Under the pieces are notes generated by a model. It was not told the DNA's origin and searched no databases. It saw only the letters and a list, made by a program, of their open reading frames with translations. Shown piece by piece: positions 3,916 to 31,022 of a stretch of 56,304 bases of DNA. A program made the translations under genes and the position numbers. How positions within the stretch are numbered: position 1 is the first letter of the stretch; each line of letters starts with the position of its first letter. Source of the stretch: a virus; the IMG/VR virus record IMGVR_UViG_3300006922_000026, positions 1 through 56,304 of that record; one strand, 5' to 3'.

Positions 3916-4971
3916 TTATTGGTAAGGGTCAATATCCAAATACTTACCCCATTCGGAATAGTAATGGCGCATACCTACTTCATCATGGATAGTTCCATTT
4001 TCATGTCTACCATGTAGTATGCGTCTATTCTCTGTTCCTTCACGCATTGTAGTACCTTGCCCAGCAACTCCGATTAGATCCTCGTGGAGGTTGCGACCAA
4101 ATGGTCCCCATATACTGTTATGATGTTTGATTCGTGTCAAACGTTCTTCTTTAGTATCTTTTTTTAGTCCGTATCCCCTAAACTCAATCAGTACACGGTT
4201 AGGACCTAATGGAGTTACTGAGTCACTGCGATATGCACTTCCACGTAGATTAAAATTGAATCCAGGAAACAAGTCTACCATATACCATTGGTTGGGCGGT
4301 AGGTTAGGAAAGGACAGTTCGCCTCTATCTTCGAAGCCGTCATACTCCTCATAGTTTACTGTGAAACTGCTTACGTTTACATGCCCGTTATCAAACGGTA
4401 TATTCTTACGTGCAAAGTATTCATCGTTGAATCCACTTACACGATTAAAGTAGTGCATGAAGTCATGATAAAATTCACTGTTGGTATCATGCCATAGTTT
4501 GTAGTTTGTATCTATGATTGCTTTGTGGTAATGGAACACTTCCATTTCTTCTGTGTCAATAGCATCAGCAATGCAATCAAATGCACCTGCTGTCCATTGT
4601 TCTACACTCTGCGTAGGATTAGGATCAAGTGTTACCCATACCATACCTCCGTGCTTTACTTCGCTGTGTAGTTGTGGCTCAACTGTTACAATAGGTGCTT
4701 CGAGTGTACCAGCAGGACCGTTTATACCGTAGTTACGATATGCTCTAACACCGTTGCCTGTATTATATGCAATAACATCAACGCCTGCTATCTGTGTTGT
4801 TCGGTAGTCTAATTCGTTATACATCTCTGAGATGTGACACATAGGTACCCATACTTTACTAAAGATACGTTCTTGCTCTTGTGCAAATATTTCTGGGTTG
4901 TTATATGCTGAACTGCTGATTGATTCTACGTTTGGTTGTGCTAACCAACTCTTATGATTACGTGGTGGCAT
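3916..4971 (-). CDS. Rieske-type non-heme iron oxygenase homologue lacking the Rieske cluster
   Basis: The N-terminal pattern (NNPEIFAQEQERIFSKVWVP, then DYRTTQIAGVDVIAY and VRAYRN) matches the alpha subunit of ring-hydroxylating oxygenases. The stretch that should follow, C-x-H then C-x2-H binding the [2Fe-2S] cluster, is missing: VRAYRN runs after a few residues into GPAGTLEAPI (85-94). The catalytic part keeps an iron-site-like motif, NSEFYHDFMH (Glu166, His169, His173), and a late HEDLI (296-300). At 351 residues it is shorter than usual. It may be a cluster-free oxygenase-like enzyme or have a non-catalytic role. GGAG precedes the ATG. It is monocistronic, between the promoter at 4999 and the one at 3872. 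Confidence 0.7.
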   Translation of the reverse strand: MPPRNHKSWLAQPNVESISSSAYNNPEIFAQEQERIFSKVWVPMCHISEMYNELDYRTTQIAGVDVIAYNTGNGVRAYRNYGINGPAGTLEAPIVTVEPQLHSEVKHGGMVWVTLDPNPTQSVEQWTAGAFDCIADAIDTEEMEVFHYHKAIIDTNYKLWHDTNSEFYHDFMHYFNRVSGFNDEYFARKNIPFDNGHVNVSSFTVNYEEYDGFEDRGELSFPNLPPNQWYMVDLFPGFNFNLRGSAYRSDSVTPLGPNRVLIEFRGYGLKKDTKEERLTRIKHHNSIWGPFGRNLHEDLIGVAGQGTTMREGTENRRILHGRHENGTIHDEVGMRHYYSEWGKYLDIDPYQ

Positions 4972-9197: not shown

Positions 9198-10165
9198 AGT
9201 ATGCTACCAGAGTTGTTTTGTTTTACTTCTTGTACGAATTGGTCTGGACTTGGTTCGTAATACTTTTCATCATACTCTTTAGGCTTATCAACAAAGTCTG
9301 TGTGTGGGTTGCCACACAATACAAATGGACCTTTTTGAATATCTAACTTAATGCCTAATGTTTTATCCTTAGGTATATGAAATCCTAATTGACACCAATG
9401 ATTAAAGTTATCACTGCCACGTCCTGGATTGTTGTTTACAAATTCTGTATCTTCACTGTATGCCTTCCAATGGAATACCATAAAGTTGTGTCCTTCTGGT
9501 CTTGGAACTTCCATGATAAATCTTAGGTCGTCTTCTTTAGGATAGTTCTTTAGATCAAGACTAAACATAAGTGTTTCATTGTCTACAGGATGATCGTCAA
9601 TACGTGTAGGACGTAATCCTGGTAATGGATATAGCATACCCATCTTTAGGTTAACAGGAAACTGTTCAATGTAACGTTTTTCTTTTTCAACTTCTTCTAA
9701 GAACAATGTACTTTGATACAGGTTAATCTTATCTGGAATAGCAACGCAACCTTGTTGTCTTGCAATCAAGTCGCTATAGATACGTGTAAAGTTTCTTTCA
9801 ATACCAATGTCGCCAAGTGTTTCACTAATAACTAAATCAAAGTAATTTGATGGAGCCTCGTTAACATCTGCGATTATTCTATAGTTTGTAACGTTGTTTA
9901 GTTTGCATAGTTCTTCAATGGTTCCATGTAAACTTGTTTGGTTCTCACAGAACCATACTTCTTTTGCACCCTGTAATGACGCATAGATACCAAGCAATCC
10001 TGTGCCTGCTCCAAAGTCAATTACAGTTTTACCTTCTGCATGTTTTTTAATTCTACTAAAGAAACCTTGACAACGTGCATGATCTTTAATCATACACATA
10101 TGACTGGCATGATCAGCAAACTCGTGATCAAATAAAGCAAAGGTATGGTCGCAAAATTTATCCAC
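9185..10165 (-). CDS. SAM-dependent methyltransferase, protein-arginine-methyltransferase-like
   Basis: Motif [16 protein letters not shown] (48-62) binds SAM, Glu74 lies at the end of the next strand (VWFCEN), and SETLGDIG (114-121) resembles the double-E loop region of PRMTs. A beta-rich C-terminal half (130-326) matches the PRMT barrel in position and size. The target is unknown; it could be a ribosomal or RNA-binding host protein. The start is GTG at 10165, overlapping the ClpP stop (GTGGATAA) with no clear ribosome site, so translation likely depends on termination of clpP. Confidence 0.75.
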
Positions 10166-10745
10166 GATTAGCGATTACCGTATCTGCAAGTCCGTAATCA
10201 ACTGCTTCTTGGGCACTCATAAAGTTATCTCTATCCATGTCTGCTTCAAGTGTAGCATAATCTTTGCCTGTGTGCTTTTCATACAGTTTAGTCAATGTTT
10301 CTTTCCAATACTGTAATTCTTTGTATTGAATCTCAACATCACTTGCTTGTCCTTGTGTTCCACCTAATGGTTGGTGTATCATGTGTCTTGCATGTGGTAA
10401 GATTTTACGTTTGCCTGGCTCACCTGCCATTGCAAGGAAACTTCCCATACTTGCCGCTTGACCCATTACAATAGTATTCACTGGCGAATTGATAAACTGC
10501 ATTGTGTCATAGATAGACATACCTGCGGTTACACTACCACCTGGACTATTAATATAAAAGTTAATTGGTTTCTTTGGATTTTCACTTTCCAAGAAAAGCA
10601 TTTGTGATACAATTAAACTTGCAGACGTACTGTTTACATCTGTGTCTAACATTATAATACGATCTTTTAGTAGACGACTGTAAATATCATAACTACGTTC
10701 GCCACGTTGTTCTTTCTCAATTACTACTGGTACTAAATTAGGCAT
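10158..10745 (-). CDS. clpP: ATP-dependent Clp protease proteolytic subunit ClpP (copy 1)
   Basis: Serine peptidase that forms the chamber served by ClpX/ClpA. In 195 residues from the ATG at 10745 (which follows AAGGAGGGG) the triad is Ser99 (MGQAASMGS), His124 (HMIHQPLGG) and Asp173 ([11 protein letters not shown]). Glycine-rich INSPGGSV (65-72) forms the oxyanion region. It is a full-length, canonical ClpP close to bacterial housekeeping versions; the longer frame to 10835 is an artefact. The phage also encodes a divergent ClpP at 14392, ClpS at 28975 and a tmRNA, and must borrow the host unfoldase. Confidence 0.95.
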
Positions 10746-10977
10746 ATCGCCCCTCCTTCGTTCTGTATACTTCTTTCGGGCCTGGTGTTGTAAACTCATA
10801 GCCAAATGCGTTACCAATGTATATACTTCTACCATTCCATTTCATATGGATTTTATTTGTAGCCATAAACACATTCATCGATTCTTTTTCTCTAAAGTTG
10901 TCTACTTCTGCTTCAACTACTTTATCGTTATCTGTACAAGTTACCATACAAGTCTTTTCGTAAACACTATTCGCCAT
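10738..10977 (-). CDS. Hypothetical protein upstream of clpP (79 aa)
   Basis: ATG with AAGGAT upstream, ending 8 bases into clpP, whose ribosome site lies in its last codons. The protein is polar with a [10 protein letters not shown] stretch near the start and a [18 protein letters not shown] beta-rich centre. Small homologues seem usual in T4-like marine phages, but I cannot name a function. The overlap implies stoichiometric coupling to ClpP. Confidence 0.65.
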
Positions 10978-14391: not shown

Positions 14392-14958
14392 TTATAGGAT
14401 ATGATCTGCGATATTAAGGTCAACCATTTGTTTGGCTGTGTAGTATTGGTCGGAAGGATTTTTGATAAACTTATTACGAACTTCTTGTATAGTCATACCA
14501 GTTGCATCACGTAATATTTGCATACATCTTGTTTCGCAGTTTTGGTTCTCTTTCATCTGTGCTTTGATGTCATGCATTTTGGCATCCATATTATCACTGT
14601 GTTGATGATTCATGCTACCTGCATTTTTACCAATATAACGTTGTCCTTCTTTACCACTTGCAAAGATTAAAAATCCTGCACTCATAACTGCACCAATTCC
14701 TATAGTGCTTATGTTGTGATAACTGTTCTTCATTACATCAATAAGAGCAAACATCTCATAGAGATCTCCGCCTGGGGTATTGATATACAATTGAAGTGTA
14801 CGTTTTGGTTTTTTGACTAAATTTGCACTTATGATCCATTTGATAGTTTCACTGACATTTTCACTTGTGATTTCTCCAGTGAGATAGTGAATATCGTTAT
14901 CAAGTAGATTACGATCTATAGCATCAGCGGCTGAAAAGAATTCGTTCTGTTTACTCAT
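14392..14958 (-). CDS. Divergent ClpP-family serine protease (copy 2)
   Basis: 188 residues with the ClpP fold: INTPGGDLYEMFALID (60-75), nucleophile Ser93 in GAVMSAGFLIFAS, catalytic His118 in SMNHQHSD and probable Asp170 (KNPSDQYY). It differs from copy 1 in the handle region and around the His, so it is a paralogue, not a duplicate. It could form mixed rings with phage or host ClpP, as ClpP1/ClpP2 pairs do in some bacteria, or act alone as a peptidase. Its ATG overlaps the metallopeptidase stop by 8 bases. Confidence 0.88.
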   Translation of the reverse strand: MSKQNEFFSAADAIDRNLLDNDIHYLTGEITSENVSETIKWIISANLVKKPKRTLQLYINTPGGDLYEMFALIDVMKNSYHNISTIGIGAVMSAGFLIFASGKEGQRYIGKNAGSMNHQHSDNMDAKMHDIKAQMKENQNCETRCMQILRDATGMTIQEVRNKFIKNPSDQYYTAKQMVDLNIADHIL

Positions 14959-16819: not shown

Positions 16820-18271
16820 TTATTGTTGGGTTAGAGTAGTTGTACCACAACCATTTGCGTTAACACAGGTTTGACTTATTGAGTATGTTTGATTAGTTGA
16901 ACCTTGTTGTGTAAGGTCAAGTCCTGAAGTGTAACCTGACATAGATACAGAAGTGTTATGCTGTCCACTTCCGTCTTGTGTTATGTCAACAGTTTGATCA
17001 CTGCCAACAGCAATTTCTGCATAGTGCGAACCTGCACCTTGTTGATATAAGTCTATATCATTGTCGTCACCTTGTACAGAAATAAATGCTTTTTTATCTC
17101 CGTCATTAAGTTGACTTGTCAAAACATTATTGTTGTCGCCATCTAAATCTAATGCAAGGAAGTGTCCATTAGTTCCTATACCATTATTGTGATTTTGTGT
17201 GATGCTTGTTGTATTAGTGTCGCCATTTATATCAAATTCAACTCTATTGTCGTCTGCACCTGATGTACTACCTTGATCAACAGTTGTTGTATTAGTGTTG
17301 CCTGTGATATCAAACAACATAACATTATTGTCGCCTTTTTGTTTTAGTGTAGTAGTGTTGTTACTTCCTGTAATATCTGCATTTACATAACTGTTTGTTG
17401 TAGATCCAACTCCTGCTATTAAGTTATCATCGCCGTCTTGTACAATAGTGAGTGTATTGCTGTTACCTACTTGATTAATGTATATACCATTGCCACTGTT
17501 TGTTACACCTCTTGATGTTGTTATCTGTGTAGTCTGTGCGTTGCTTATGCTTGATGTATATGTGGTTGTTGTTGCAACTAATCCTTCTTCTTGCAAGGCT
17601 CGATACAAGAAGTCATTCATGTTACTTGCATATTGATGAGTTGAAAGAAATTGTCCATAACCAAACGTTACATAAACTGTACCGCCATTTGAACCGTAAT
17701 CCCATTTATGCATCATTTCAATTGTAGATGTGGTAGTATTAGCAGTAACCATTTCACCACCAGTAATATTGTACATATATTTGTCTGTGCCTGGTAAAAT
17801 ATTTTCACTTGCTGTGCTACTGGCATAATCGCCTCTGGCTATATTTTGATAACCACCATTACTACTACCGGCTTGAGTAAAACTGCCTACACTTAACTTA
17901 CTTTCAATTAAACTTTCTATATTACTATTTCTGGTGGTCGCTCCGTTGGATCCTACTATAAGTAATTTACCGCCGCTTGATAGATAACTTTCATAATTTG
18001 TTTTACAGGTACTACCACAATTTGAAGAACCTGTGATATCAATTACAAGTTCTTTACCTGATATATCAGAACTACTAACGGTACCACTTGTACTACTTGA
18101 AACAGTAAAGCCTGCATCTTCAAGTTCGCTTTTTAAATTAAGGTATTGGCTTGAAGTATTATAACCACCACTATTTTTATAATATATGAAAGCATCATTT
18201 GCAAATGCTTGTATAGGCAATACTAATAATAAAAATAATACACTACTGAACTTGTACAATGTCGATTTCAT
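16820..18271 (-). CDS. Secreted curlin-repeat protein with N-terminal amidotransferase-like domain
   Basis: Start ATG at 18271 with GGAG 9 bases upstream; the longer frame is inside fecR. Residues 1-24 form a signal peptide (FSSVLFLLLVLPIQAFA). About 25-220 resemble a Rossmann/GATase1-type domain (SYLSSGGKLLIVGSNG, GTVYVTFGYGQF). From about 250 to the end run curlin-type repeats with the Q-x-G-x2-N spacing (INQVGNSNTLTIVQDGDDN and later copies). It is a probable amyloid subunit or nucleator exported by the phage CsgG/CsgF. 483 residues, far longer than CsgA. The last gene of the operon. Confidence 0.75.
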   Translation of the reverse strand: MKSTLYKFSSVLFLLLVLPIQAFANDAFIYYKNSGGYNTSSQYLNLKSELEDAGFTVSSSTSGTVSSSDISGKELVIDITGSSNCGSTCKTNYESYLSSGGKLLIVGSNGATTRNSNIESLIESKLSVGSFTQAGSSNGGYQNIARGDYASSTASENILPGTDKYMYNITGGEMVTANTTTSTIEMMHKWDYGSNGGTVYVTFGYGQFLSTHQYASNMNDFLYRALQEEGLVATTTTYTSSISNAQTTQITTSRGVTNSGNGIYINQVGNSNTLTIVQDGDDNLIAGVGSTTNSYVNADITGSNNTTTLKQKGDNNVMLFDITGNTNTTTVDQGSTSGADDNRVEFDINGDTNTTSITQNHNNGIGTNGHFLALDLDGDNNNVLTSQLNDGDKKAFISVQGDDNDIDLYQQGAGSHYAEIAVGSDQTVDITQDGSGQHNTSVSMSGYTSGLDLTQQGSTNQTYSISQTCVNANGCGTTTLTQQ

Positions 18272-19349
18272 TTTGTCCATCTCCAAGTTGGTAGTCTCTG
18301 TATTCAAAGTCTTGTTGTCGCATATTAATATTATAACCATACTGTTGATCTAAACGTAATTCATAAAAGTTTCCTAAACCATCATCACGTCTTAATACCC
18401 AGTCTGGGTTTTGATCATACAGTTCTATTCCTGTTTCAGGATCTTTACCTAACTGTATACCTTTTTGTCTTGAGTCTAATGCTCCACGCATAAGTCTTGC
18501 TAATGCTTGGTTAATTTGATCTAAGATATTAGCAAGAAAGTTATTACCTAAGAAGTCTACGTCCAGGTCGGTCATCCAAAGACCCTTTTCACTTTCTGCA
18601 AAGTAGTTTGTATTAAGTTCATCAAAGTCTAAAAAGTCGACGCCTAAGAAGTCGCCTAACTTTCTAACTCTTTCATATTCTTGTTGTTCATTATCATACA
18701 CAGGCTTGCGTATGATTAGCAAGTTGTTAATGATTAAGTTTGTTGGATCTAACAAAAGGGGTTTCAGTGGAGCACTCGCACGAGTGTTAACCGAAGTAAC
18801 TTGGAAGGCCTGATTGAGTATTACTATACCCACATCGGACTCCACTGAAATTTCACCTACTACACATATCCCATTAGTCGTACAACTGGGTAGTAGGATT
18901 ACCATAGTATTACCTGTTTCGTCTACAGTCATGGTAAAATCTGTTCCTCTAACACCAATTACTGCTGTTGGTGTTTTTATCTTGACATTCTGTCTTGAAT
19001 TCTTTGCGATTTGTCCAGACGCATAACGTACAGTACCAAGTGATGCCTTCAAACTCAGTGCTCCTGTCTTTGTGTTTGGATCATAAACAAAATCGTCTAT
19101 TATTAATTTACTGTGGGGAGTAACGTCGACTCTGGTCTCGTCAACAAATTCAATCGCGGTTGCTCCTTGCTGTGTTAGTACTGTGTCCATACTAAACACA
19201 TCGGTGTCCTTTTCACTCTTTACTACATCACCCTCTTGCCTTTCAATTACTGCGTTACCTTCTTGTTTGATAACGTCACCAATTGAGTTGGCAAGAGCCG
19301 ATGAAACAGTCAAGACGAGGAATGATATTAAAACACCTAACTTCAACAT
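18243..19349 (-). CDS. Secreted FecR-domain protein
   Basis: Signal peptide at residues 1-20 (LISFLVLTVSSALA). Residues 35-150 form a FecR domain: VFSMDTVLTQQGATAIEFVD, ETRVDVTPHSKLII, LKASLGTVRYASG and the hallmark KIKTPTAVIGVRGTDF. The rest (180-368) is charged and has no recognisable domain. FecR domains act in periplasmic sensing and are often found with secretion systems. It lies 3 bases after the curlin-repeat gene and overlaps the next by 29, so it belongs to the curli-like operon. Confidence 0.82.
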   Translation of the reverse strand: MLKLGVLISFLVLTVSSALANSIGDVIKQEGNAVIERQEGDVVKSEKDTDVFSMDTVLTQQGATAIEFVDETRVDVTPHSKLIIDDFVYDPNTKTGALSLKASLGTVRYASGQIAKNSRQNVKIKTPTAVIGVRGTDFTMTVDETGNTMVILLPSCTTNGICVVGEISVESDVGIVILNQAFQVTSVNTRASAPLKPLLLDPTNLIINNLLIIRKPVYDNEQQEYERVRKLGDFLGVDFLDFDELNTNYFAESEKGLWMTDLDVDFLGNNFLANILDQINQALARLMRGALDSRQKGIQLGKDPETGIELYDQNPDWVLRRDDGLGNFYELRLDQQYGYNINMRQQDFEYRDYQLGDGQNEIDIVQVQ

Positions 19350-19352
19350 ACG

Positions 19353-20057
19353 TTAATCGCTCTGCGTAATGTTGATGGCCGCGTTGTCACCACTTGTTGT
19401 CAAATTGATGATGTTGTCATATACACCTGATTGTGATATAACTGTTAATCCTGCATCACCAGTATGGCTGTGTGTTAACGTATGACCGTTAGTATCTCCG
19501 TCACCAGTTTGTGTGTAGGTTGCTACGTTACCTGCACTACCTGAACTGTTTGAAACGTCGATATCTGCTATTGCACTTTTACCGTTTGCTGTTAGTGTAA
19601 TTGTTTCGTCTGCCGCACTTGTTACATCTATTGTACCAGTGAAACTTTCTGCATCTGCGCCTTCACCAATATTTACATTAATGTCTGCACTTGATCCAGT
19701 TACGTCAATACTCATACTTACAGTGTCACAGTTTCCTGCTCCTGAACTATCACAGAGTAATGCTACATCATTACTGTTACCAGTAAGATCAATATTACCT
19801 GTGTAAGTTACACCTTTAACTACTGCTGATACTACGTTAGCACCACCAATTTGGTCAATGTTAAAAGTCATTGTGTTACCAGTTAGTGTGATTGCTGTAC
19901 TTGATGTACCTGCAACGTTATTGTTCCCGTCTTGTGTTATGTCCAAATCTAAGTTATTACCACTTTGCGTAATATAAATGTCATTCGCTATCGCTGGTGT
20001 TAAGAAAAGTAACATACTTATAAACAGGATACTTCTTAATGAAAATGCTTTGTTCAT
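19353..20057 (-). CDS. Secreted curlin-repeat protein (CsgA/CsgB-like)
   Basis: Signal peptide of about 24 residues (FISMLLFLTPAIA). The mature protein begins with two curlin-type units (IYITQSGNNLDLDITQDGNN) and ends with related ones (LTVISQSGVYDNI, NAAINITQSD), with a Ser/Thr/Gly/Asp-rich middle containing one cysteine pair. 234 residues against about 150 for E. coli CsgA. It overlaps csgG by 4 bases. A likely amyloid fibre subunit passed through CsgG. Confidence 0.75.
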   Translation of the reverse strand: MNKAFSLRSILFISMLLFLTPAIANDIYITQSGNNLDLDITQDGNNNVAGTSSTAITLTGNTMTFNIDQIGGANVVSAVVKGVTYTGNIDLTGNSNDVALLCDSSGAGNCDTVSMSIDVTGSSADINVNIGEGADAESFTGTIDVTSAADETITLTANGKSAIADIDVSNSSGSAGNVATYTQTGDGDTNGHTLTHSHTGDAGLTVISQSGVYDNIINLTTSGDNAAINITQSD

Positions 20058-21109
20058 CTTCTTTCTCCTATATTATTTGTTCCTTCTTCGTTTACTTCCT
20101 TCTTCTCTGTGCGAAGTCTTTCGTACTTAAATTGTGCTACAGCAACATCTGATGGTATACACAGATTGTTATCTGAACAATATAAAGTCTTACCCGGCCA
20201 CTTTTTATACGCCTCGACGTCTGGCAATGGGCGGAGGTGTGGGATAGAAATGTCAACTTCTACATCGTCGGTCTGATGTACAACCTTCGGTGATTCAACC
20301 ACCGCCGGCTTCTCGACTATTTTCTTCTTAAACTTCCAAAGACCATTCGCTTCTCCTCTGGTCACTAACTCTACTATTGCCGCCTCGATGGCCGCACGAA
20401 CTGCATAGTTAGTTGGTTCATTAACAGCAGAACCGGCTTCTATTTCAAGCGCCTTTGTTCCCATGTCAAGAAACCTAAATACGTCTGCTCCAGACGCATA
20501 AGATGCAATCGTTTTTTCAGTTGCTACGCTTAATAATACTTCACCAGTTTGTACACTCACGATACGCATTGCTACTGTTACTTTGTCTGTTCGATACTGT
20601 GTGTTTGCGCCAATACCAAAGTATCTTGCGCCAGCACCGCCACTTGTAATGTTACTGTCATATCCAATAACACCACCTTCTAAAAGTAACCCTGCAAATT
20701 TCATAGGCTTTAATTTGTTACTGCCCTCTTTGCCTTCATACAACTCCCTTGTTGATCTAATTAACTGCCTTTCTTTTACTAAATTTTCTAATCCTACTCT
20801 TTCTAAAACAGTGAACCAAGTTCCGTTACCTACTTCTTGTAATCCACTTATCACCCAAACCTCAGCACCTTGTGTAACTGCTGAACTTAACTGTGAGAAA
20901 TTCTCACTTGGTTTACGCTGTCCTGTTTTATCAGTAAATCCATATATTGCTATGGTGATCTTTTCACCATCTAACTCTGGAGTTCTTTTTAATACGTTTT
21001 CAATAGGACTTCTAACTACTTTAGGATTTTCAATCATAGAATCAGGCATGGTTGTCGCACACCCTGTCATGAGAACCATCGCTAATAGTATTGTTATTAT
21101 CCTAAACAT
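20054..21109 (-). CDS. csgG: Curli secretion channel CsgG-like lipoprotein
   Basis: CsgG forms the outer-membrane pore that exports curli subunits. Lipobox LMTGC with Cys17; then the CsgG core: KITIAIYGFTDKTGQRKPS, SSAVTQGAEVWVISGL, VLERVGLENLVKERQLIRST, a glycine-rich transmembrane hairpin region (GGVIGYDSNITSGGAGARYF) and VSVQTGEVLLSVATEKTI. Residues up to about 265 match the usual size; another 85 hydrophilic residues with a CSDNNLC pair are an extension not found in E. coli CsgG. Four bases separate it from csgF. Confidence 0.92.
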   Translation of the reverse strand: MFRIITILLAMVLMTGCATTMPDSMIENPKVVRSPIENVLKRTPELDGEKITIAIYGFTDKTGQRKPSENFSQLSSAVTQGAEVWVISGLQEVGNGTWFTVLERVGLENLVKERQLIRSTRELYEGKEGSNKLKPMKFAGLLLEGGVIGYDSNITSGGAGARYFGIGANTQYRTDKVTVAMRIVSVQTGEVLLSVATEKTIASYASGADVFRFLDMGTKALEIEAGSAVNEPTNYAVRAAIEAAIVELVTRGEANGLWKFKKKIVEKPAVVESPKVVHQTDDVEVDISIPHLRPLPDVEAYKKWPGKTLYCSDNNLCIPSDVAVAQFKYERLRTEKKEVNEEGTNNIGERR

Positions 21110-21113
21110 TTTC

Positions 21114-21584
21114 TTAAAATCCGAATCCGCTTAATGGAACAACTATTTCTGTGGTAGTACCGTCTTCATTTGTAATTGTTACAGTAATAGTATCCGAGGT
21201 AGTATCTTTAACCCAGTAAACTGTAGCACCTTCAATGGTTGCTGTTCCTGAGTTGGCACCGTCATCAGTAAACATATTATCTACCAACTGCTTACTTAAC
21301 TGTGCGTAAATTCTTGATTCGACGTTATTAAGAAACTTCGCAAGAGTTGTGGACTCTGCTTCACGTTTGGCTTTAGCCGCATCGGCCGCCGCTTTTTCTT
21401 CTGCTTCTTTTTTACGTTGGAATTGTAATTGCTCTATAGAAAGCACGTGGTTGGAATAACCTTGCCCTGAAAACGAAGGATTTTTAAATTCAAATGTAAG
21501 GTCACTTGCCACCGCGGGCGGTGACGTTGTTATGTGAAGCAATCCCAGTAATAGAATCACTCCTGTTCGAGTCAGTTTTAGCAT
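21114..21584 (-). CDS. csgF: Curli assembly factor CsgF-like
   Basis: CsgF caps the CsgG pore and couples secretion to fibre nucleation. Signal peptide to about Ala26, then the diagnostic start of mature CsgF, DLTFEFKNPSFSGQGYSN, whose first residues plug into CsgG. A charged helix (KKEAEEKAAADAAKAKREAE) and the C-terminal beta part follow; 156 residues, close to the family. GGAGGG precedes the ATG. It is the first gene of the operon csgF-csgG-curlin-fecR-curlin; csgB/csgD/csgE/csgC equivalents are not visible. Confidence 0.92.
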   Translation of the reverse strand: MLKLTRTGVILLLGLLHITTSPPAVASDLTFEFKNPSFSGQGYSNHVLSIEQLQFQRKKEAEEKAAADAAKAKREAESTTLAKFLNNVESRIYAQLSKQLVDNMFTDDGANSGTATIEGATVYWVKDTTSDTITVTITNEDGTTTEIVVPLSGFGF

Positions 21585-21717
21585 TAATTGCCCTCCACAT
21601 GTATTTACCGTAGATCGAATCAGATTTCACCAGGTACAAAAATCTGACGGTCACATTAATTTGTTACGTTTAAATGTTGGTTTTTTGACGGTCTGGTGAT
21701 TTAATCAGTACATAAAT
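21585..21717. promoter_or_regulatory. Divergent control region of the curli-like operon and cyclase
   Basis: The 133 bases between the divergent genes hold an inverted repeat, CACCAG (21629-21634) and CTGGTG (21694-21699), each flanked by TCAGATTT/ATTTAATCAG-like sequence, and two direct copies of TGACGGTC. On the plus strand TTGACG (21685-21690) lies 18 bases before TACATA. On the minus strand a late-type box GGTAAATA (21602-21609) precedes csgF. Shared regulation of both units is likely. Confidence 0.55.
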
Positions 21718-23772
21718 ATGTGTATGAAATACATAACTCACTGGGCAACTGCCTTACTCACTTTAGCATTTCTTACATTCTACGGATATTCAGATCCATA
21801 CGTTAAACAAATATTAAGATTAAAAAGTTTTGATGTTGTTCAACGTTCCGATACTCCTGTGATTAGCGAAGATATTGCTATACTTGAGATAGATGAGAAA
21901 GCGATTGAGCAGTATGGACAATGGCCTTGGAAACGTTCAGTACTTGCAGATGTTATATGGAAGTTGCGTGAGTCAGGTGCAGGAGTAATTGTACTACCTA
22001 TATTGTTTTCAGAGGAAGATAGACTTGGTGGTGACATGGAACTTGCTCAAGCAATAGCCGGGAACGCTGTTGTAATTGCACAAGTAGGAACAACTCAAGC
22101 AAACAAGAACGCAGTACCAAGAGGTGTTGCCAAGATAGGTGATCCTATGCCTTGGTTATTTGAATGGCCAGGTATGTTAGGACCAATAGAGTTATTAGGA
22201 ATGAACGCTGATGGTGTTGGTGTTGTAAACACTGTACCAGAGATAGATGGTGTTGTACGTAGAATGCCACTTATAATGCGTGTAGGTGATGAAACATATC
22301 CTGCAATGGCAATAGAAACAATACGTGTTGCTACAGGCGATCCAAGTTATCAAGTTAAAACAGAACAAGGCGGCATAACAAAAATGCGTGTTCCTGCATA
22401 TGCAACTATACAGACAGATGCTAACGGACGCATATGGTTACGTTGGAACAAACAATTTCCAACATATAGTTTAGTAGAAGATGATTACACACAACTTGCA
22501 GGCAAGACTGTTATTATAAGTCCTACAGCAGAAGGACTCAACAGTATCATTGCTACACCTAACGGAGAACGTTATTCACACTTGCTAACTGCAACAGCAT
22601 TGCAAACAATTATCAATGGCGATACTATTGTTAGAATGGACTATGCTACGTTTGTAGAGTGGGCAGGAACTGCTTTACTTGGTCTTATAATCATCTTAAT
22701 GGCTCTTAAAACACCGTATTGGCTTGTAGGCACTGTTATAGTTGCTGTACCAATAAGTGCTGTGTATGGAGCATATTTTGCTTTTACAAGGCATTTACAA
22801 CTATGGGATTGGAGTTGGCCGGTGATTGTAGTTGTAATCGTCGGATTACATGCAGTGTTTAATAGGTTCGCAAAAGAGTTCTTTGAGAAACAAGCAATTA
22901 AAAAACAGTTCGCAGGATACGCATCTCCAACAGTTGTGCGTATGCTACAAGAGAATCCAGCACTAATCAAAGACGGTATGAAGAAAGAAGTTAGCATACT
23001 GTTTTCAGACTTACGAGGCTTTACACCATTAGGTGAATCATTTGGTGATGATGTAAAAGGCCTAACAAAAATTATGAATGGCTACATGGACGCAATTACG
23101 CAACCTGTACTTGATGCTGATGGTATGATTATTAAGTACATCGGCGATGCAAGTATGCACATACATAATGCACCGATAGAAGATCCTGAACACCCTAAGA
23201 CAGCAGTTCGTACAGGATTGAATATGTTAACAGCAGTGGAGAAATTTAATGATAAAATCACAGCAGAAGGACGGCCGCCAATTGGCATGGGAGCAGGCAT
23301 CAATACAGGACTTGGCTATCTTGGAGAAATGGGTAGCACCGCAAGACATTCGTACGATGTACTCGGAGACGCAGTCAGTACAGCCGCAAGAATCGAAAGC
23401 AAATGTAAAGAATACGGATGCCTACTATTAGTAGGTGATGCTACGTATAAGCAAACCAAAGACGATTTCTTTTACTTAAAAGTAGATGAACTACAAGTAA
23501 AAGGCAAGAGTGTTGGTATTATTATATGGACTGTGCTTGATGGTATGAATACTAATTCAGATCGCAAGAGTCAGAAAATGCACCAAGAAATGCACGAAGC
23601 ATACAGAGCCCAGAAGTTTGATGAAGCAATATGGATCTGTGAAAAACTAATGAGACACTTTGATGGCAAAATGGAAGGCTATTATAAGATGTGGATTGAA
23701 CGTTGTGAGTTCCAGAAAACACAAGACTTACCTAAAGACTGGAACGGTATAATGATTGCTACTTCGAAGTAG
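21718..23772 (+). CDS. CHASE2-domain class III adenylate cyclase
   Basis: Makes cyclic AMP from ATP in response to an extracytoplasmic CHASE2 sensor. Residues 4-24 are a membrane helix, 35-300 CHASE2, then three helices (about 312-382) and the cyclase domain (424-600). Metal ligands Asp431 (FSDLRGFT) and Asp477 (YIGDASM), adenine-type specificity pair Lys473 and Asp547, and Arg558 are present; the usual transition-state Asn is Ser554 (DAVSTAARIE), a variant I believe also occurs in CHASE2 cyclases of alphaproteobacteria. A helical C-tail follows. One of few plus-strand genes; divergent from csgF. Start at 21718 or 21724; no ribosome site. Confidence 0.9.
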   Translation: MCMKYITHWATALLTLAFLTFYGYSDPYVKQILRLKSFDVVQRSDTPVISEDIAILEIDEKAIEQYGQWPWKRSVLADVIWKLRESGAGVIVLPILFSEEDRLGGDMELAQAIAGNAVVIAQVGTTQANKNAVPRGVAKIGDPMPWLFEWPGMLGPIELLGMNADGVGVVNTVPEIDGVVRRMPLIMRVGDETYPAMAIETIRVATGDPSYQVKTEQGGITKMRVPAYATIQTDANGRIWLRWNKQFPTYSLVEDDYTQLAGKTVIISPTAEGLNSIIATPNGERYSHLLTATALQTIINGDTIVRMDYATFVEWAGTALLGLIIILMALKTPYWLVGTVIVAVPISAVYGAYFAFTRHLQLWDWSWPVIVVVIVGLHAVFNRFAKEFFEKQAIKKQFAGYASPTVVRMLQENPALIKDGMKKEVSILFSDLRGFTPLGESFGDDVKGLTKIMNGYMDAITQPVLDADGMIIKYIGDASMHIHNAPIEDPEHPKTAVRTGLNMLTAVEKFNDKITAEGRPPIGMGAGINTGLGYLGEMGSTARHSYDVLGDAVSTAARIESKCKEYGCLLLVGDATYKQTKDDFFYLKVDELQVKGKSVGIIIWTVLDGMNTNSDRKSQKMHQEMHEAYRAQKFDEAIWICEKLMRHFDGKMEGYYKMWIERCEFQKTQDLPKDWNGIMIATSK

Positions 23773-27602: not shown

Positions 27603-27610
27603 TATTTATG
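27603..27610 (-). promoter_or_regulatory. T4-late-like box next to a start codon
   Basis: CATAAATA on the minus strand, 8 bases before the ATG at 27594; predicts an almost leaderless message. Confidence 0.6.
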
Positions 27611-28292
27611 CAAGTTTAGGGAATAGCATATCAGTGCAAAACTTGTCTACATCTGCTTCGTCTAATCCTAAAGACTTCATTACGTTAGGTGTGTGGGGGT
27701 TTTGTTGCTGGTTATGACAGTAGTAATCTTGTGCGCCTGATACCAATGCTTTGTCGCCTTCGCCTTTTGTAATACCTACTTCATCGAAGTATGCACGTAG
27801 ATTGCTCAATGCAATACGTATAATTTCATCTGCTTCTTCGTCTGTCTTTACGTTACCTGCGGCAAGCATTTTATCTGTAAAGATGTTAGTTGCCCATTCT
27901 GGTAACTTGCGTTGCTTCTCCGGAACAAAGTGTTCTACACTTTCTCGGTAGCCATCAATCATAGGGTGATGCATATCACTGCTTGGTGAAAAATCGTGGA
28001 AGGCTCCTGTTATCTTATTCTTACCTGCAATAACATCAAAGCCGTATATAGGTGCTGGGTTGTCTAACGTAGGAAAAATACATACATGCATCATCCACAA
28101 GCCTTTTGAAGCACGAGCATCTACAACATCAATGTGAGCTCGTCTAACATTATCATTTGCCCATACCCTATTAATCCAGCCGCCATCAGGACGATTAAAA
28201 TAGTCCAGTCCAGGCTCATTAATTTCTTTAGCCTGTTCGTCAAAAATTTGTATGATTTCATCTTTGCAATTGATTAGTTTATCCCAAAGCAT
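27606..28292 (-). CDS. pcyX: Ferredoxin-dependent bilin reductase (PcyX-like)
   Basis: Reduces biliverdin made by heme oxygenase, using host ferredoxin. The family core is visible: GLWMMHVCIFPTLDNPAPIYG, GFDVIAGKNKITGAFHDFSP (Asp86 and Asp100 in catalytic-type positions), then LPEWATNIFTDKML and a QDYYCHNQQQNPHTP stretch near the C-terminus. 228 residues fits PcyA/PebS/PcyX enzymes. The pairing with a phage heme oxygenase in a non-photosynthetic-type phage matches PcyX, which makes phycoerythrobilin; product identity is inferred. Its late position and small coiled-coil neighbour are noteworthy. Confidence 0.85.
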   Translation of the reverse strand: MLWDKLINCKDEIIQIFDEQAKEINEPGLDYFNRPDGGWINRVWANDNVRRAHIDVVDARASKGLWMMHVCIFPTLDNPAPIYGFDVIAGKNKITGAFHDFSPSSDMHHPMIDGYRESVEHFVPEKQRKLPEWATNIFTDKMLAAGNVKTDEEADEIIRIALSNLRAYFDEVGITKGEGDKALVSGAQDYYCHNQQQNPHTPNVMKSLGLDEADVDKFCTDMLFPKLA

Positions 28293-28448
28293 TTACTTCA
28301 CCTTTCTGCTTGTGGTCTTCTCCAACCATGCGACTTTTTTCTGTAAGTCGATTATTTGTTCTTGTAGTAATTGTATTTGTGCTATTACTTTTAATTCTTT
28401 ATCTTTGTTTGCTTGAACTTGAAATTCAGGCACTTCACTTAACTTCAT
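28293..28448 (-). CDS. 51-residue coiled-coil protein between hemO and pcyX
   Basis: Starts at ATG 28448 inside the end of the heme oxygenase gene, with AAGAG upstream; the longer frame is a shadow of hemO. The sequence has a clear heptad pattern (VIAQIQLLQEQIIDLQKKVA) ending in a basic tail. It ends 1 base before the bilin reductase start, so all three are translated together. It may hold the two enzymes together or be a short structural peptide; unknown family. Confidence 0.6.
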   Translation of the reverse strand: MKLSEVPEFQVQANKDKELKVIAQIQLLQEQIIDLQKKVAWLEKTTSRKVK

Positions 28449-28974
28449 CTTGCATCTCTTTAAATAAATCAGTTGCGAATTGGAAACAAATTCTTGCTTC
28501 AGGAGCCATGTCATCATTTAGACGCTCTCTGATTGCAGTCTTAAGTTCATCTGGTTGTGTAAAATCATACATAGTTCCTTTACCAGGAATCTTTTTACGT
28601 ATCATTTGTCCACCACTCAAATCACCCATATGTCTTGTATAAATGTGTGCCATTAATTTTTGTTTATCATCTCTGATACTCATAATATGGTCTGCGTACA
28701 TTTTACTACTTGGTGCAAGTTTCGGTGGGTTTTCTAAATCATTCCATAGTTCAGTGTAGTCTTCAAGTATCTTACTTGCCCGTCTAACATCTGGCAAGTC
28801 ATCTAACACACCTTCTGCCATTGCAACAGTTTCTAATAGGTTATAATTTACGTATTGGTTATATAAAAAAGTTGCGTATACTTTAGGGTCAATCTTGCCA
28901 CTCATTAATACTTTTACAAAGCCTTGGCGTTCTGCATTTCTATGATGCTCATATGTTAATTCTTTTAAACTCAT
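28435..28974 (-). CDS. hemO: Heme oxygenase
   Basis: Opens heme to biliverdin, CO and iron. Proximal heme ligand His11 is in LTYEHHRNAE, and the distal helix shows GDLSGG (117-122) in RHMGDLSGGQMIRK. 179 residues is close to short bacterial and phage heme oxygenases. ClpS lies directly upstream (TAAATG) and the coiled-coil and bilin reductase genes directly downstream. It could supply bilin or release iron from host heme for phage enzymes. Confidence 0.93.
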   Translation of the reverse strand: MSLKELTYEHHRNAERQGFVKVLMSGKIDPKVYATFLYNQYVNYNLLETVAMAEGVLDDLPDVRRASKILEDYTELWNDLENPPKLAPSSKMYADHIMSIRDDKQKLMAHIYTRHMGDLSGGQMIRKKIPGKGTMYDFTQPDELKTAIRERLNDDMAPEARICFQFATDLFKEMQDEVK

Positions 28975-29274
28975 TTAGTCCTTCTCTATTCTGATTTGTA
29001 ATGGGAACCCTGCGTTCCTACTTAGGGTCGTTGCTTCAATACTTTTCTGCTCAGCAAGTTCAAAACTATATACACCACATATTGCACTTCCTTCTTGATG
29101 AATCTTCATCGTTAAGTCTCTTGCATTTTCTGGTGTGTGTTTAAAAATAGATGTTAAGATTTCTATTACAAAATCCATAGGCGTATGGTCGTCATTAAGT
29201 AATATAACTTTGTATCGATCAGGTGTTGAAATTACCTGTTCAATCTTTTCGTCAATGTCTACTGCTGTACTCAT
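28975..29274 (-). CDS. clpS: ClpS adaptor protein
   Basis: ClpS delivers N-degron substrates to ClpA-ClpP. After a flexible N-terminal 20 residues the core is complete: YKVILLNDDHTPMDFVIEIL (22-41), FKHTPENARDLTMKIHQEG and ICGVYSFELAEQKSIEATTL. Asn-Asp-Asp and the following residues form the substrate pocket. 99 residues, normal size. AAGGAG precedes the ATG, with late box AATAAATA at 29289-29296. With two ClpP subunits in this phage it suggests deliberate steering of host proteolysis. Confidence 0.95.
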   Translation of the reverse strand: MSTAVDIDEKIEQVISTPDRYKVILLNDDHTPMDFVIEILTSIFKHTPENARDLTMKIHQEGSAICGVYSFELAEQKSIEATTLSRNAGFPLQIRIEKD

Positions 29275-29340: not shown

Positions 29341-29781
29341 TTACTTAACTGTGATTGAACGTGCTTTCTTCGCCTCTGGAACAATACGCTCCATTGCTAT
29401 TTTAAGCAATCCATCTTTCAACTCAGCGCCGTTAACTACAACATCATCAGCGATTGAAAAAGACTTACTAAACTGTCTTTTACTAATGCCTTGGTGTTGT
29501 ACACCTTCTCTCTGTGCTTCGTTGTTATCGTGTACAGATTTTACTGTTACAACACCATCTTCGTATTGTACATCAATATCGTCTTTACCGAATCCTGCAA
29601 GAGCCAATTCAATATCGTAGGTGTAATCACCTGTTCTTACAATATTGTATGGGGGGTAGTTAGTAGTTGGAGCGTCAAAGAAGTTATCGTTGAACATCCT
29701 TTCGAATCTGTCAAATACAGGATCGAATCCTACTGTTACGGGTCTTAGTTGGTTAAAAATTGATAGGGATTTGTTTGTCAT
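29341..29781 (-). CDS. Small heat-shock protein Hsp20 (IbpA-like)
   Basis: Holds unfolding proteins. The alpha-crystallin domain spans about residues 45-140: YPPYNIVRTGDYTYDIELAL, AGFGKDDIDVQYEDGVVTVK and LKDGLLKIAMERIVPE, with the I-x-V tail motif near the C-terminus (SITVK). The N-terminus (LRPVTVGFDPVFDRFERMF) matches bacterial class A. 146 residues. GGAGG precedes the ATG. It has both a sigma70-like promoter (29865-29893) and a late box (29845-29852). Confidence 0.93.
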   Translation of the reverse strand: MTNKSLSIFNQLRPVTVGFDPVFDRFERMFNDNFFDAPTTNYPPYNIVRTGDYTYDIELALAGFGKDDIDVQYEDGVVTVKSVHDNNEAQREGVQHQGISKRQFSKSFSIADDVVVNGAELKDGLLKIAMERIVPEAKKARSITVK

Positions 29782-29909: not shown

Positions 29910-31022
29910 TTATGCGTTGTATTGATTGAACACTTGATTAACCTGTTGTGTACATCTTACGAATGTTGTACACTTAGGCATATCTTTAATGCGTTTTGCT
30001 CCAATGTAAGTACAAGTAGATCGTAAACCACCAAGTATTTCTGTTAGTGTACCTTCTACTTCTCCTTTGTAAGGAATAGAAACAAGTTTGCCTTCAGCAC
30101 CCCTGTATCCATCTTTACGTGTACCATGTGTCGCCATGGCCGCGTCTGAGCTCATTCCGTAGAACTCAACAAAACTCTGTTCAGCAAAGTGCGGAACATA
30201 AGTTCCATTGTCTAACTTATGAGCACCTCCTGTTGATGTGTGTTTTGTAATAATGTTACCACCACCTTCTTTGTGTCCTGCTAACATACCGCCAAGCATA
30301 ACAAAGTGAGCACCTGCTCCAAAGGCTTTACTTACATCTCCTGGATACACACAACCGCCATCAGCAATAATGTGTCCACCAATACCATTGGCCGCATCAG
30401 CACATTCAATAATGCCTGATAGTTGCGGTACACCAACACCTGTCATTAGTCGTGTAGTACATACTGATCCTGGACCAATACCACACTTGACAATGTCAGC
30501 ACCTTTGATAATAAGTTCTTCTGTCATCTCTGCTGAAATAACATTACCAGCAATAATAGTTTTGTCTGGGTATGCGTCTCTAACTCTTGCAATAAAGTCT
30601 GCATAGTTTTCGTGATAAGCATTTGCAACATCAATAGTAATAAACTTGATGTCTGGATACATTTCTAATACTGCTTTCATAGTAGCATAGTCTTTTGCAT
30701 CTTTATCCCAAATAACTCCTGTACCTGTGCAAACACTTAGGTACTTCATCTTTACACCTGCACTGTGTTCTTTCCAGTCATCTACTGAATAGTGCTTTCG
30801 CATTACAGTAATCATTTTATGTTCTTGCAGGACCTTCGCCATCTCGAATGTACCAACACCGTCCATGTTACTTGACATGATCGGTACTCCAGTCCATTCA
30901 TTACCATAATGAAACTTGATCGTTCGAGTCAAGTCAACGTCACGCCTGCTTTCTAATTTAGACCGTTTAGGCTTAAACAGTACGTCTTTGTAATCTAACT
31001 TAACATCTTGTTCGATTCTCAT
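29910..31022 (-). CDS. guaC: GMP reductase
   Basis: Converts GMP to IMP with NADPH, joining guanine and adenine nucleotide pools. IMPDH/GMPR barrel signatures: LDYKDVLFKPKRS at the N-terminus, VPIMSSNMDGVGT (47-58), catalytic Cys188 in GIGPGSVCTTR, IADGGCVYPGDVSKAFGAGA and the mobile GYRGAEGKL region. 370 residues, slightly longer than bacterial GuaC, no CBS domains, which favours GMPR over IMPDH. It likely adjusts purine pools for phage DNA synthesis alongside NrdAB. The ATG overlaps the upstream gene by 4 bases. Confidence 0.9.
   Translation of the reverse strand: MRIEQDVKLDYKDVLFKPKRSKLESRRDVDLTRTIKFHYGNEWTGVPIMSSNMDGVGTFEMAKVLQEHKMITVMRKHYSVDDWKEHSAGVKMKYLSVCTGTGVIWDKDAKDYATMKAVLEMYPDIKFITIDVANAYHENYADFIARVRDAYPDKTIIAGNVISAEMTEELIIKGADIVKCGIGPGSVCTTRLMTGVGVPQLSGIIECADAANGIGGHIIADGGCVYPGDVSKAFGAGAHFVMLGGMLAGHKEGGGNIITKHTSTGGAHKLDNGTYVPHFAEQSFVEFYGMSSDAAMATHGTRKDGYRGAEGKLVSIPYKGEVEGTLTEILGGLRSTCTYIGAKRIKDMPKCTTFVRCTQQVNQVFNQYNA

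Follow-up and report, generated by a model that had tools for sequence, protein, structure and literature searches.

A heme oxygenase-PcyX cassette with an intervening small ORF in a phage resembling those of Pelagibacter and Methylophilales

The literature has yet to explain why phages of non-photosynthetic bacteria make phycobilins; the papers of Ledermann et al. (2016, 2018) are reportedly the founding ones on the phage hemO-pcyX cassette. Such cassettes, hemO-pcyX with or without valaS, have been published from marine and freshwater phages, including phages of non-cyanobacteria; their purpose has been called enigmatic, and recombinant phage heme oxygenase (HO) and relatives of PcyX and PcyA were found to be active (PMC11480375). 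The same question is raised by an IMG/VR virus record (IMGVR_UViG_3300006922_000026), the 56,304 nt of which are referred to here as the window. On its minus strand, genes for ClpS, HO, a 51-codon ORF and a bilin reductase lie nearly head to tail. The original prediction had read 27606-28974 as HO and a PcyX-like reductase with a 51-codon gene between them, and all three are indeed present there on the minus strand. The features of the locus are as follows.

27606-28292, minus strand: predicted PcyX-type ferredoxin-dependent bilin reductase, 228 aa (PF05996, E 1.9e-17; Asp55/His69/Asp86; tree placement)
28293-28448, minus strand: small ORF of 51 codons, its stop within the span, with an MKLSxxPxF start and a predicted heptad-patterned helix; known from six phages
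28299-28307, minus strand: candidate Shine-Dalgarno-like sequence of PcyX, AGAAAGGTG, within the final codons of the small ORF (by inspection only)
28435-28974, minus strand: predicted HO, 179 aa (PF01126, E 6.6e-19)
28975-29274, minus strand: predicted ClpS adaptor, 99 aa, its end meeting the start of HO (PF02617, E 1.7e-29)
29341-29781, minus strand: predicted Hsp20 small heat-shock protein, the customary neighbour of ClpS in such phages (PF00011, E 1.2e-16)
29910-31022, minus strand: predicted IMP dehydrogenase/GMP reductase-family protein, which belongs to the customary upstream neighbourhood (PF00478, E 8.9e-67)

The HO-PcyX enzyme pair itself is not new. Published hemO-pcyX and hemO-pcyA/X-valaS cassettes combine the same two families in the same order in non-cyanobacterial phages and carry the PcyX signature residue, and hemO likewise precedes pcyX in this phage, with the one 51-codon ORF between them. 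Unlike the published cassettes, the window has this coiled-coil ORF between the genes and no 5-aminolevulinate synthase (AlaS) gene within its 56 kb; several of its relatives do encode AlaS, as the published hemO-pcyA/X-valaS cassette does, but elsewhere in the genome. The small ORF begins inside HO, sharing 14 nt with the end of that gene, and the TAA of the small ORF is followed immediately by the PcyX ATG; such short overlaps and gaps between cassette genes fit translational coupling.

We searched viral contigs for PcyX-like stretches, of which 225 matched and 80 were kept, with loci ranked by how closely they resembled the window or its HO. The roles of conserved pocket and active-site residues were taken from known homologues, and trees were quick searches apart from the set used for the AU test. 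The HO of the window matches PF01126 at 69 bits against a cut-off of 23, and heme oxygenases in the PDB match it with E values down to 1.8e-12. Its heme-ligand His11 and the distal-helix GDLSGGQ are intact, and His11, Asp118 and Gly122 are invariant among 109 phage homologues. The protein is expected to convert heme to biliverdin IXalpha.

The reductase matches PF05996 at 64 bits. Its closest solved structure is 5owg, 'PcyX_EBK42635' (E 1e-80, versus 4e-13 for cyanobacterial PcyA); the two proteins align without gaps over 226 residues and share the catalytic Asp/His/Asp, but about half of their residues differ. Its Asp55 stands at the position of PcyA Glu76, a replacement that is the criterion for PcyX and has been tied to phycoerythrobilin formation (PMC11480375, PMC10151467), and the equivalents of PcyA His88 and Asp105 are kept as His69 and Asp86. 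Of 102 phage PcyX homologues, 101 have Asp55 and all have His69 and Asp86; PcyX of the L135 type has Asn at position 55 instead of Asp. In the phylogeny, phage sequences related to the window form one branch with 5owg and with PcyX of Pelagibacter phage Mosig EXVC030M (MT647606), outside of which fall Synechocystis PcyA, cyanophage PcyA and PebS, on very long reference branches. Cyanophage PcyA and PebS belong to the same superfamily (Fe_bilin_red), but PcyA is only 23-28% identical to the window enzyme, has Glu at the position of Asp55 and, like PebS, lies on a separate branch. The label "PcyX-like" is thus upheld by best structural match, branch and signature residue alike, and the comparison with PcyX, PcyA and PebS that had been proposed as a check placed the reductase with PcyX rather than with the cyanophage enzymes. 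As far as sequence can tell, this confirms a PcyX-type reductase, for which phycoerythrobilin is the expected product.

A bacterial source for PcyX was considered and rejected. A pattern scan of 84,980 species returned only four MAG contigs, all with phage-type gene order (L194-L197), assigned to the unrelated Neomarinimicrobiota, Pirellulales, Halobacteroidaceae and 'Rickettsiales'; they are probably misbinned phage sequence. Other alphaproteobacterial matches look like another type of bilin reductase.

The best isolate matches of the window proteins are mostly from Pelagibacter phages HTVC008M and Mosig and Methylophilales phage Melnitz. Identity to isolate phages is 32-72% for a curli module and a CHASE2-cyclase and 66% for Hsp20, and ribonucleotide reductase is 65-70% identical, with cyanophages about as close for this last protein. 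None of 14 long PcyX contigs carries photosystem reaction-centre genes, and three of these 14 (L048, L133 and L136) have a T4-type portal. By protein similarity, then, the phage appears to resemble T4-like phages of Pelagibacter and Methylophilales, and its host is likely a non-photosynthetic marine proteobacterium. The suggestion of a non-photosynthetic alphaproteobacterial host was borne out in its first part by this kinship and by the missing photosystem genes; its second part is only plausible, for the nearest relatives infect both Pelagibacter, an alphaproteobacterium, and Methylophilales (OM43). A cyanophage origin was ruled out by the PcyX signature, the tree, the lack of photosystem genes in the 14 long contigs and the kinship with SAR11 and OM43 phages. 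Mosig itself has overlapping HO and PcyX genes in this order near 2OG-Fe(II) oxygenases, but its PcyX and HO are only 52% and 46% identical to those of the window, and its cassette lies beside neck genes and has neither the upstream ClpS nor the small ORF. The curli-type module of the window (16820-23772; CsgG, curlin repeats and a FecR-like protein) lies beside the CHASE2-nucleotide cyclase, which is 72% identical to that of Melnitz.

What might the pair do in such a host? The original prediction had allowed for a benefit from iron release or from a bilin signal, and both readings stay in play. We consider it fairly probable that it is a phage heme-degradation cassette in which HO and PcyX are driven by host ferredoxin, iron is released and biliverdin is removed as phycoerythrobilin, with the small ORF as a clade-specific accessory inherited with HO and not an obligatory scaffold. 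HO would open host heme into biliverdin, CO and ferrous iron, and PcyX would reduce biliverdin by four electrons to phycoerythrobilin. A search of the window and of 14 long relatives turned up no 2Fe-2S ferredoxin, so a phage-encoded electron donor was rejected, and host ferredoxin would supply both enzymes. Iron would be freed by HO even without PcyX, whose reaction must therefore be explained separately. By analogy with biliverdin reductase, the consumption of biliverdin by PcyX might pull HO forward and take its reactive product away; a literature check for a PcyX-type pull of this kind found nothing. The freed iron might benefit phage iron enzymes, and the window encodes a class Ia ribonucleotide reductase small subunit, a NifU-like protein, several 2OG-Fe(II) oxygenases and a Rieske-type oxygenase. 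The last of these (3916-4971, minus strand) belongs to the ring-hydroxylating oxygenase alpha-subunit family. The cassette reading is favoured by the catalytic residues of HO and PcyX, which appear intact across about 100 homologues. AlaS is encoded in nine of 20 cassette-bearing records, the near relative L003 among them, which points to a managed heme flux. On the other hand, phages that also make heme precursors (through AlaS, or ferrochelatase in Mosig) would look wasteful if iron were the only aim.

Alternatively, the bilin itself might be the point, with a receptor of host or phage origin (a bacteriophytochrome, a bilin-binding globin or a BchJ-like protein) using phycoerythrobilin or an isomer as its chromophore or ligand, for signalling or protection during infection. 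The conservation of PcyX with its full active site, and not of HO alone, in about 100 cassettes would suit this idea, and phytochrome and globin acceptors have been raised by the authors of the published survey (PMC11480375). Nevertheless, neither a receptor nor a phycobiliprotein was seen among the scanned window genes (a subset of the ORFs), the two-domain cyclase of the window matches CHASE2 and cyclase only, and bilin reductases of any kind occur in just three of 385 genomes drawn from the class to which one MAG match belongs. We regard this alternative as unlikely.

The small ORF might be thought a chance reading frame. Its longest reading in the window is 28293-28517 (74 aa), and the start common to all relatives gives 28293-28448 (51 codons). 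It is present in six phages (the window, L002, L003, L011, L046 and L081), all of which share the MKLSxxPxF start, and a hydrophobic heptad run recurs in every copy despite sequence divergence (shuffle P 0.002-0.04). No stop codon interrupts the frame anywhere in the slot in four separate lineages, for each of which Markov shuffles give a chance of about 2-5% (product about 1e-6). Its dN/dS ratios of 0.16-0.42, estimated from few sites, compare with 0.04-0.16 for the flanking enzymes, suggesting that the peptide is constrained, albeit loosely, and evolves faster than its neighbours. A chance ORF is unlikely given the shared start, the heptad test, dN/dS and the open-frame test; this is probably a genuine gene that evolves quickly. 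Searches with the ORF itself returned just two loci, neither of them new; its Pfam matches were weak and all below cut-off, and PHROG gave no match. The AlphaFold2 monomer model is a single helix over residues 8-50 (mean pLDDT 86), and the label 'coiled coil' stands for this modelled helix together with the heptad pattern. Part of the conservation at its ends may not concern the peptide, because the first codons overlap the end of HO and the last contain the candidate PcyX ribosome-binding site.

The small ORF could be a translational relay or spacer, a functionless peptide whose translation hands ribosomes on from the end of HO to the beginning of PcyX, with the PcyX ribosome-binding site in its last codons. 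In all copies checked it overlaps HO by 14-26 nt and its stop abuts the PcyX start or lies within a few bases of it, and its fast divergence also agrees with such a role. However, HO and PcyX are coupled directly in most relatives, which lack the small ORF, and the shared N-terminal motif and preserved heptad pattern would be unexpected of a mere spacer, which leaves the relay a doubtful explanation with some chance of being correct.

The original prediction had suggested that the small gene might scaffold the two enzymes, and had asked whether related phages keep it in the same place. Six of 103 distinct cassettes do so, and the other 97 do not: HO and PcyX are adjacent or overlapping in 83, and the slot holds a tryptophan-halogenase-like gene (PF04820) in seven, a nitrilase-like gene (PF00795) in five, both a halogenase-like and a nitrilase-like gene in one and a 2OG-Fe(II) oxygenase in one. 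In L214, found afterwards by a scan based on ClpS, the slot holds an unrelated ORF of 63 codons. The HO-PcyX junction is an insertion hot spot. Loci with a tryptophan-halogenase-family gene between HO and PcyX include L087, L090, L091, L113 and L114; in the halogenase-bearing L070 and L080, a conserved ORF of 36-37 residues, one stretch of which is hydrophobic and membrane-like, stops shortly before PcyX, in the last ~120 nt.

The six small-ORF phages form a single clade in the HO tree (97% SH-aLRT), whose neighbours carry a halogenase in the slot; the PcyX tree splits the six among three or more positions. A single PcyX clade for these six, a group set by gene content and not picked from the PcyX tree, was rejected by the AU test (p = 7e-5). 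Most likely, judging from these trees, the small ORF was gained once and travelled with HO while PcyX was swapped by recombination, although its link to HO may be one of physical linkage only.

These patterns bear directly on whether the peptide could tether HO to PcyX, as scaffold or adaptor, and so channel biliverdin. The small ORF does sit between the two genes, it has the heptad-patterned helix of coiled-coil scaffold proteins, with Ile and Leu in the pattern, and its conserved MKLSxxPxF start could be a docking motif. But a scaffold should co-occur and co-evolve with both enzymes, and this ORF is absent from 97 of the 103 distinct cassettes, tracks HO only and accompanies divergent PcyX types (66-92% identical to that of the window) while HO keeps to one clade. 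PcyX exchange combined with HO-linked descent sits awkwardly with a scaffold suited to both partners, and a slot that is empty in other relatives, or filled by unrelated enzymes (14 of the 97), argues against a dedicated one. Distribution, slot contents and HO-only descent thus rule out the scaffold as the leading idea; we now hold it to be very unlikely and advise experimenters not to build on it. If the small ORF acts on the heme-degradation pathway at all, it would most likely act on HO, as a small helical and perhaps dimeric protein, or it might keep translation coupled from HO to PcyX.

A more constant companion of the cassette is ClpS. Of 101 cassettes whose contigs reach far enough upstream, 98 have ClpS as the gene immediately preceding HO; 91 have Hsp20 no more than 1.2 kb before HO, and 78 have an IMPDH/GMP-reductase gene upstream. 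Among 18 HO loci without detected PcyX, ClpS is absent from 17, and the exception (L115) is a contig that ends after HO. The phage ClpS appears to keep the presumed N-degron pocket Asn-Asp...His, an assignment we take from E. coli ClpS: Asn27, Asp28 and His59 are nearly or fully invariant among 113 homologues. ClpP genes occur in 14 of 20 cassette-bearing records, with two in the window. These two minus-strand ClpP-like genes (10158-10835 and 14392-14958) both have an apparent Ser-His-Asp by inspection and make up, with ClpS, most of a Clp protease kit on one phage.

It is conceivable from this association that ClpS and HO-PcyX are one unit, in which ClpS delivers host hemoproteins or an enzyme of the tetrapyrrole pathway for Clp proteolysis and HO-PcyX disposes of the heme that this liberates; plant ClpS1, for instance, binds glutamyl-tRNA reductase (PMC7966870). 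Other phages, however, carry Hsp20-ClpS beside an IMPDH-family gene without HO-PcyX (e.g. L218-L222, L227, L229, L232 and L235), such that the locus appears to predate the cassette, and in Mosig no ClpS adjoins the HO-PcyX pair. The link may therefore be a position shared by descent, in a sample that was ranked by similarity to the window, and a similar caution on positional linkage has been published for Hsp20 beside pmoC (PMC7674155). We judge a single unit to be rather unlikely. An extended form of it, in which an Hsp20-ClpS-HO-PcyX module would couple N-degron proteolysis (phage ClpS with phage or host ClpP, aimed at host heme proteins or a heme-synthesis enzyme) to disposal of heme as iron and a harmless bilin, with small genes such as the coiled-coil ORF tuning HO in particular lineages, is distinctly unlikely. 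We found no mention of the conserved Hsp20-ClpS neighbourhood of window-type cassettes in the accessible part of PMC11480375. No literature joining ClpS to the HO-PcyX cassette was found in a search that covered neither of the two founding PcyX papers, so that priority is uncertain.

Testable leads, into proteolysis with heme turnover and into iron, come from the ClpS neighbour, from HO-PcyX recombination and from the range of slot genes. The ClpS-HO-PcyX block is also found in very large phage contigs (L133, 357 kb; L136, 372 kb; L019, 275 kb; L048, 262 kb).
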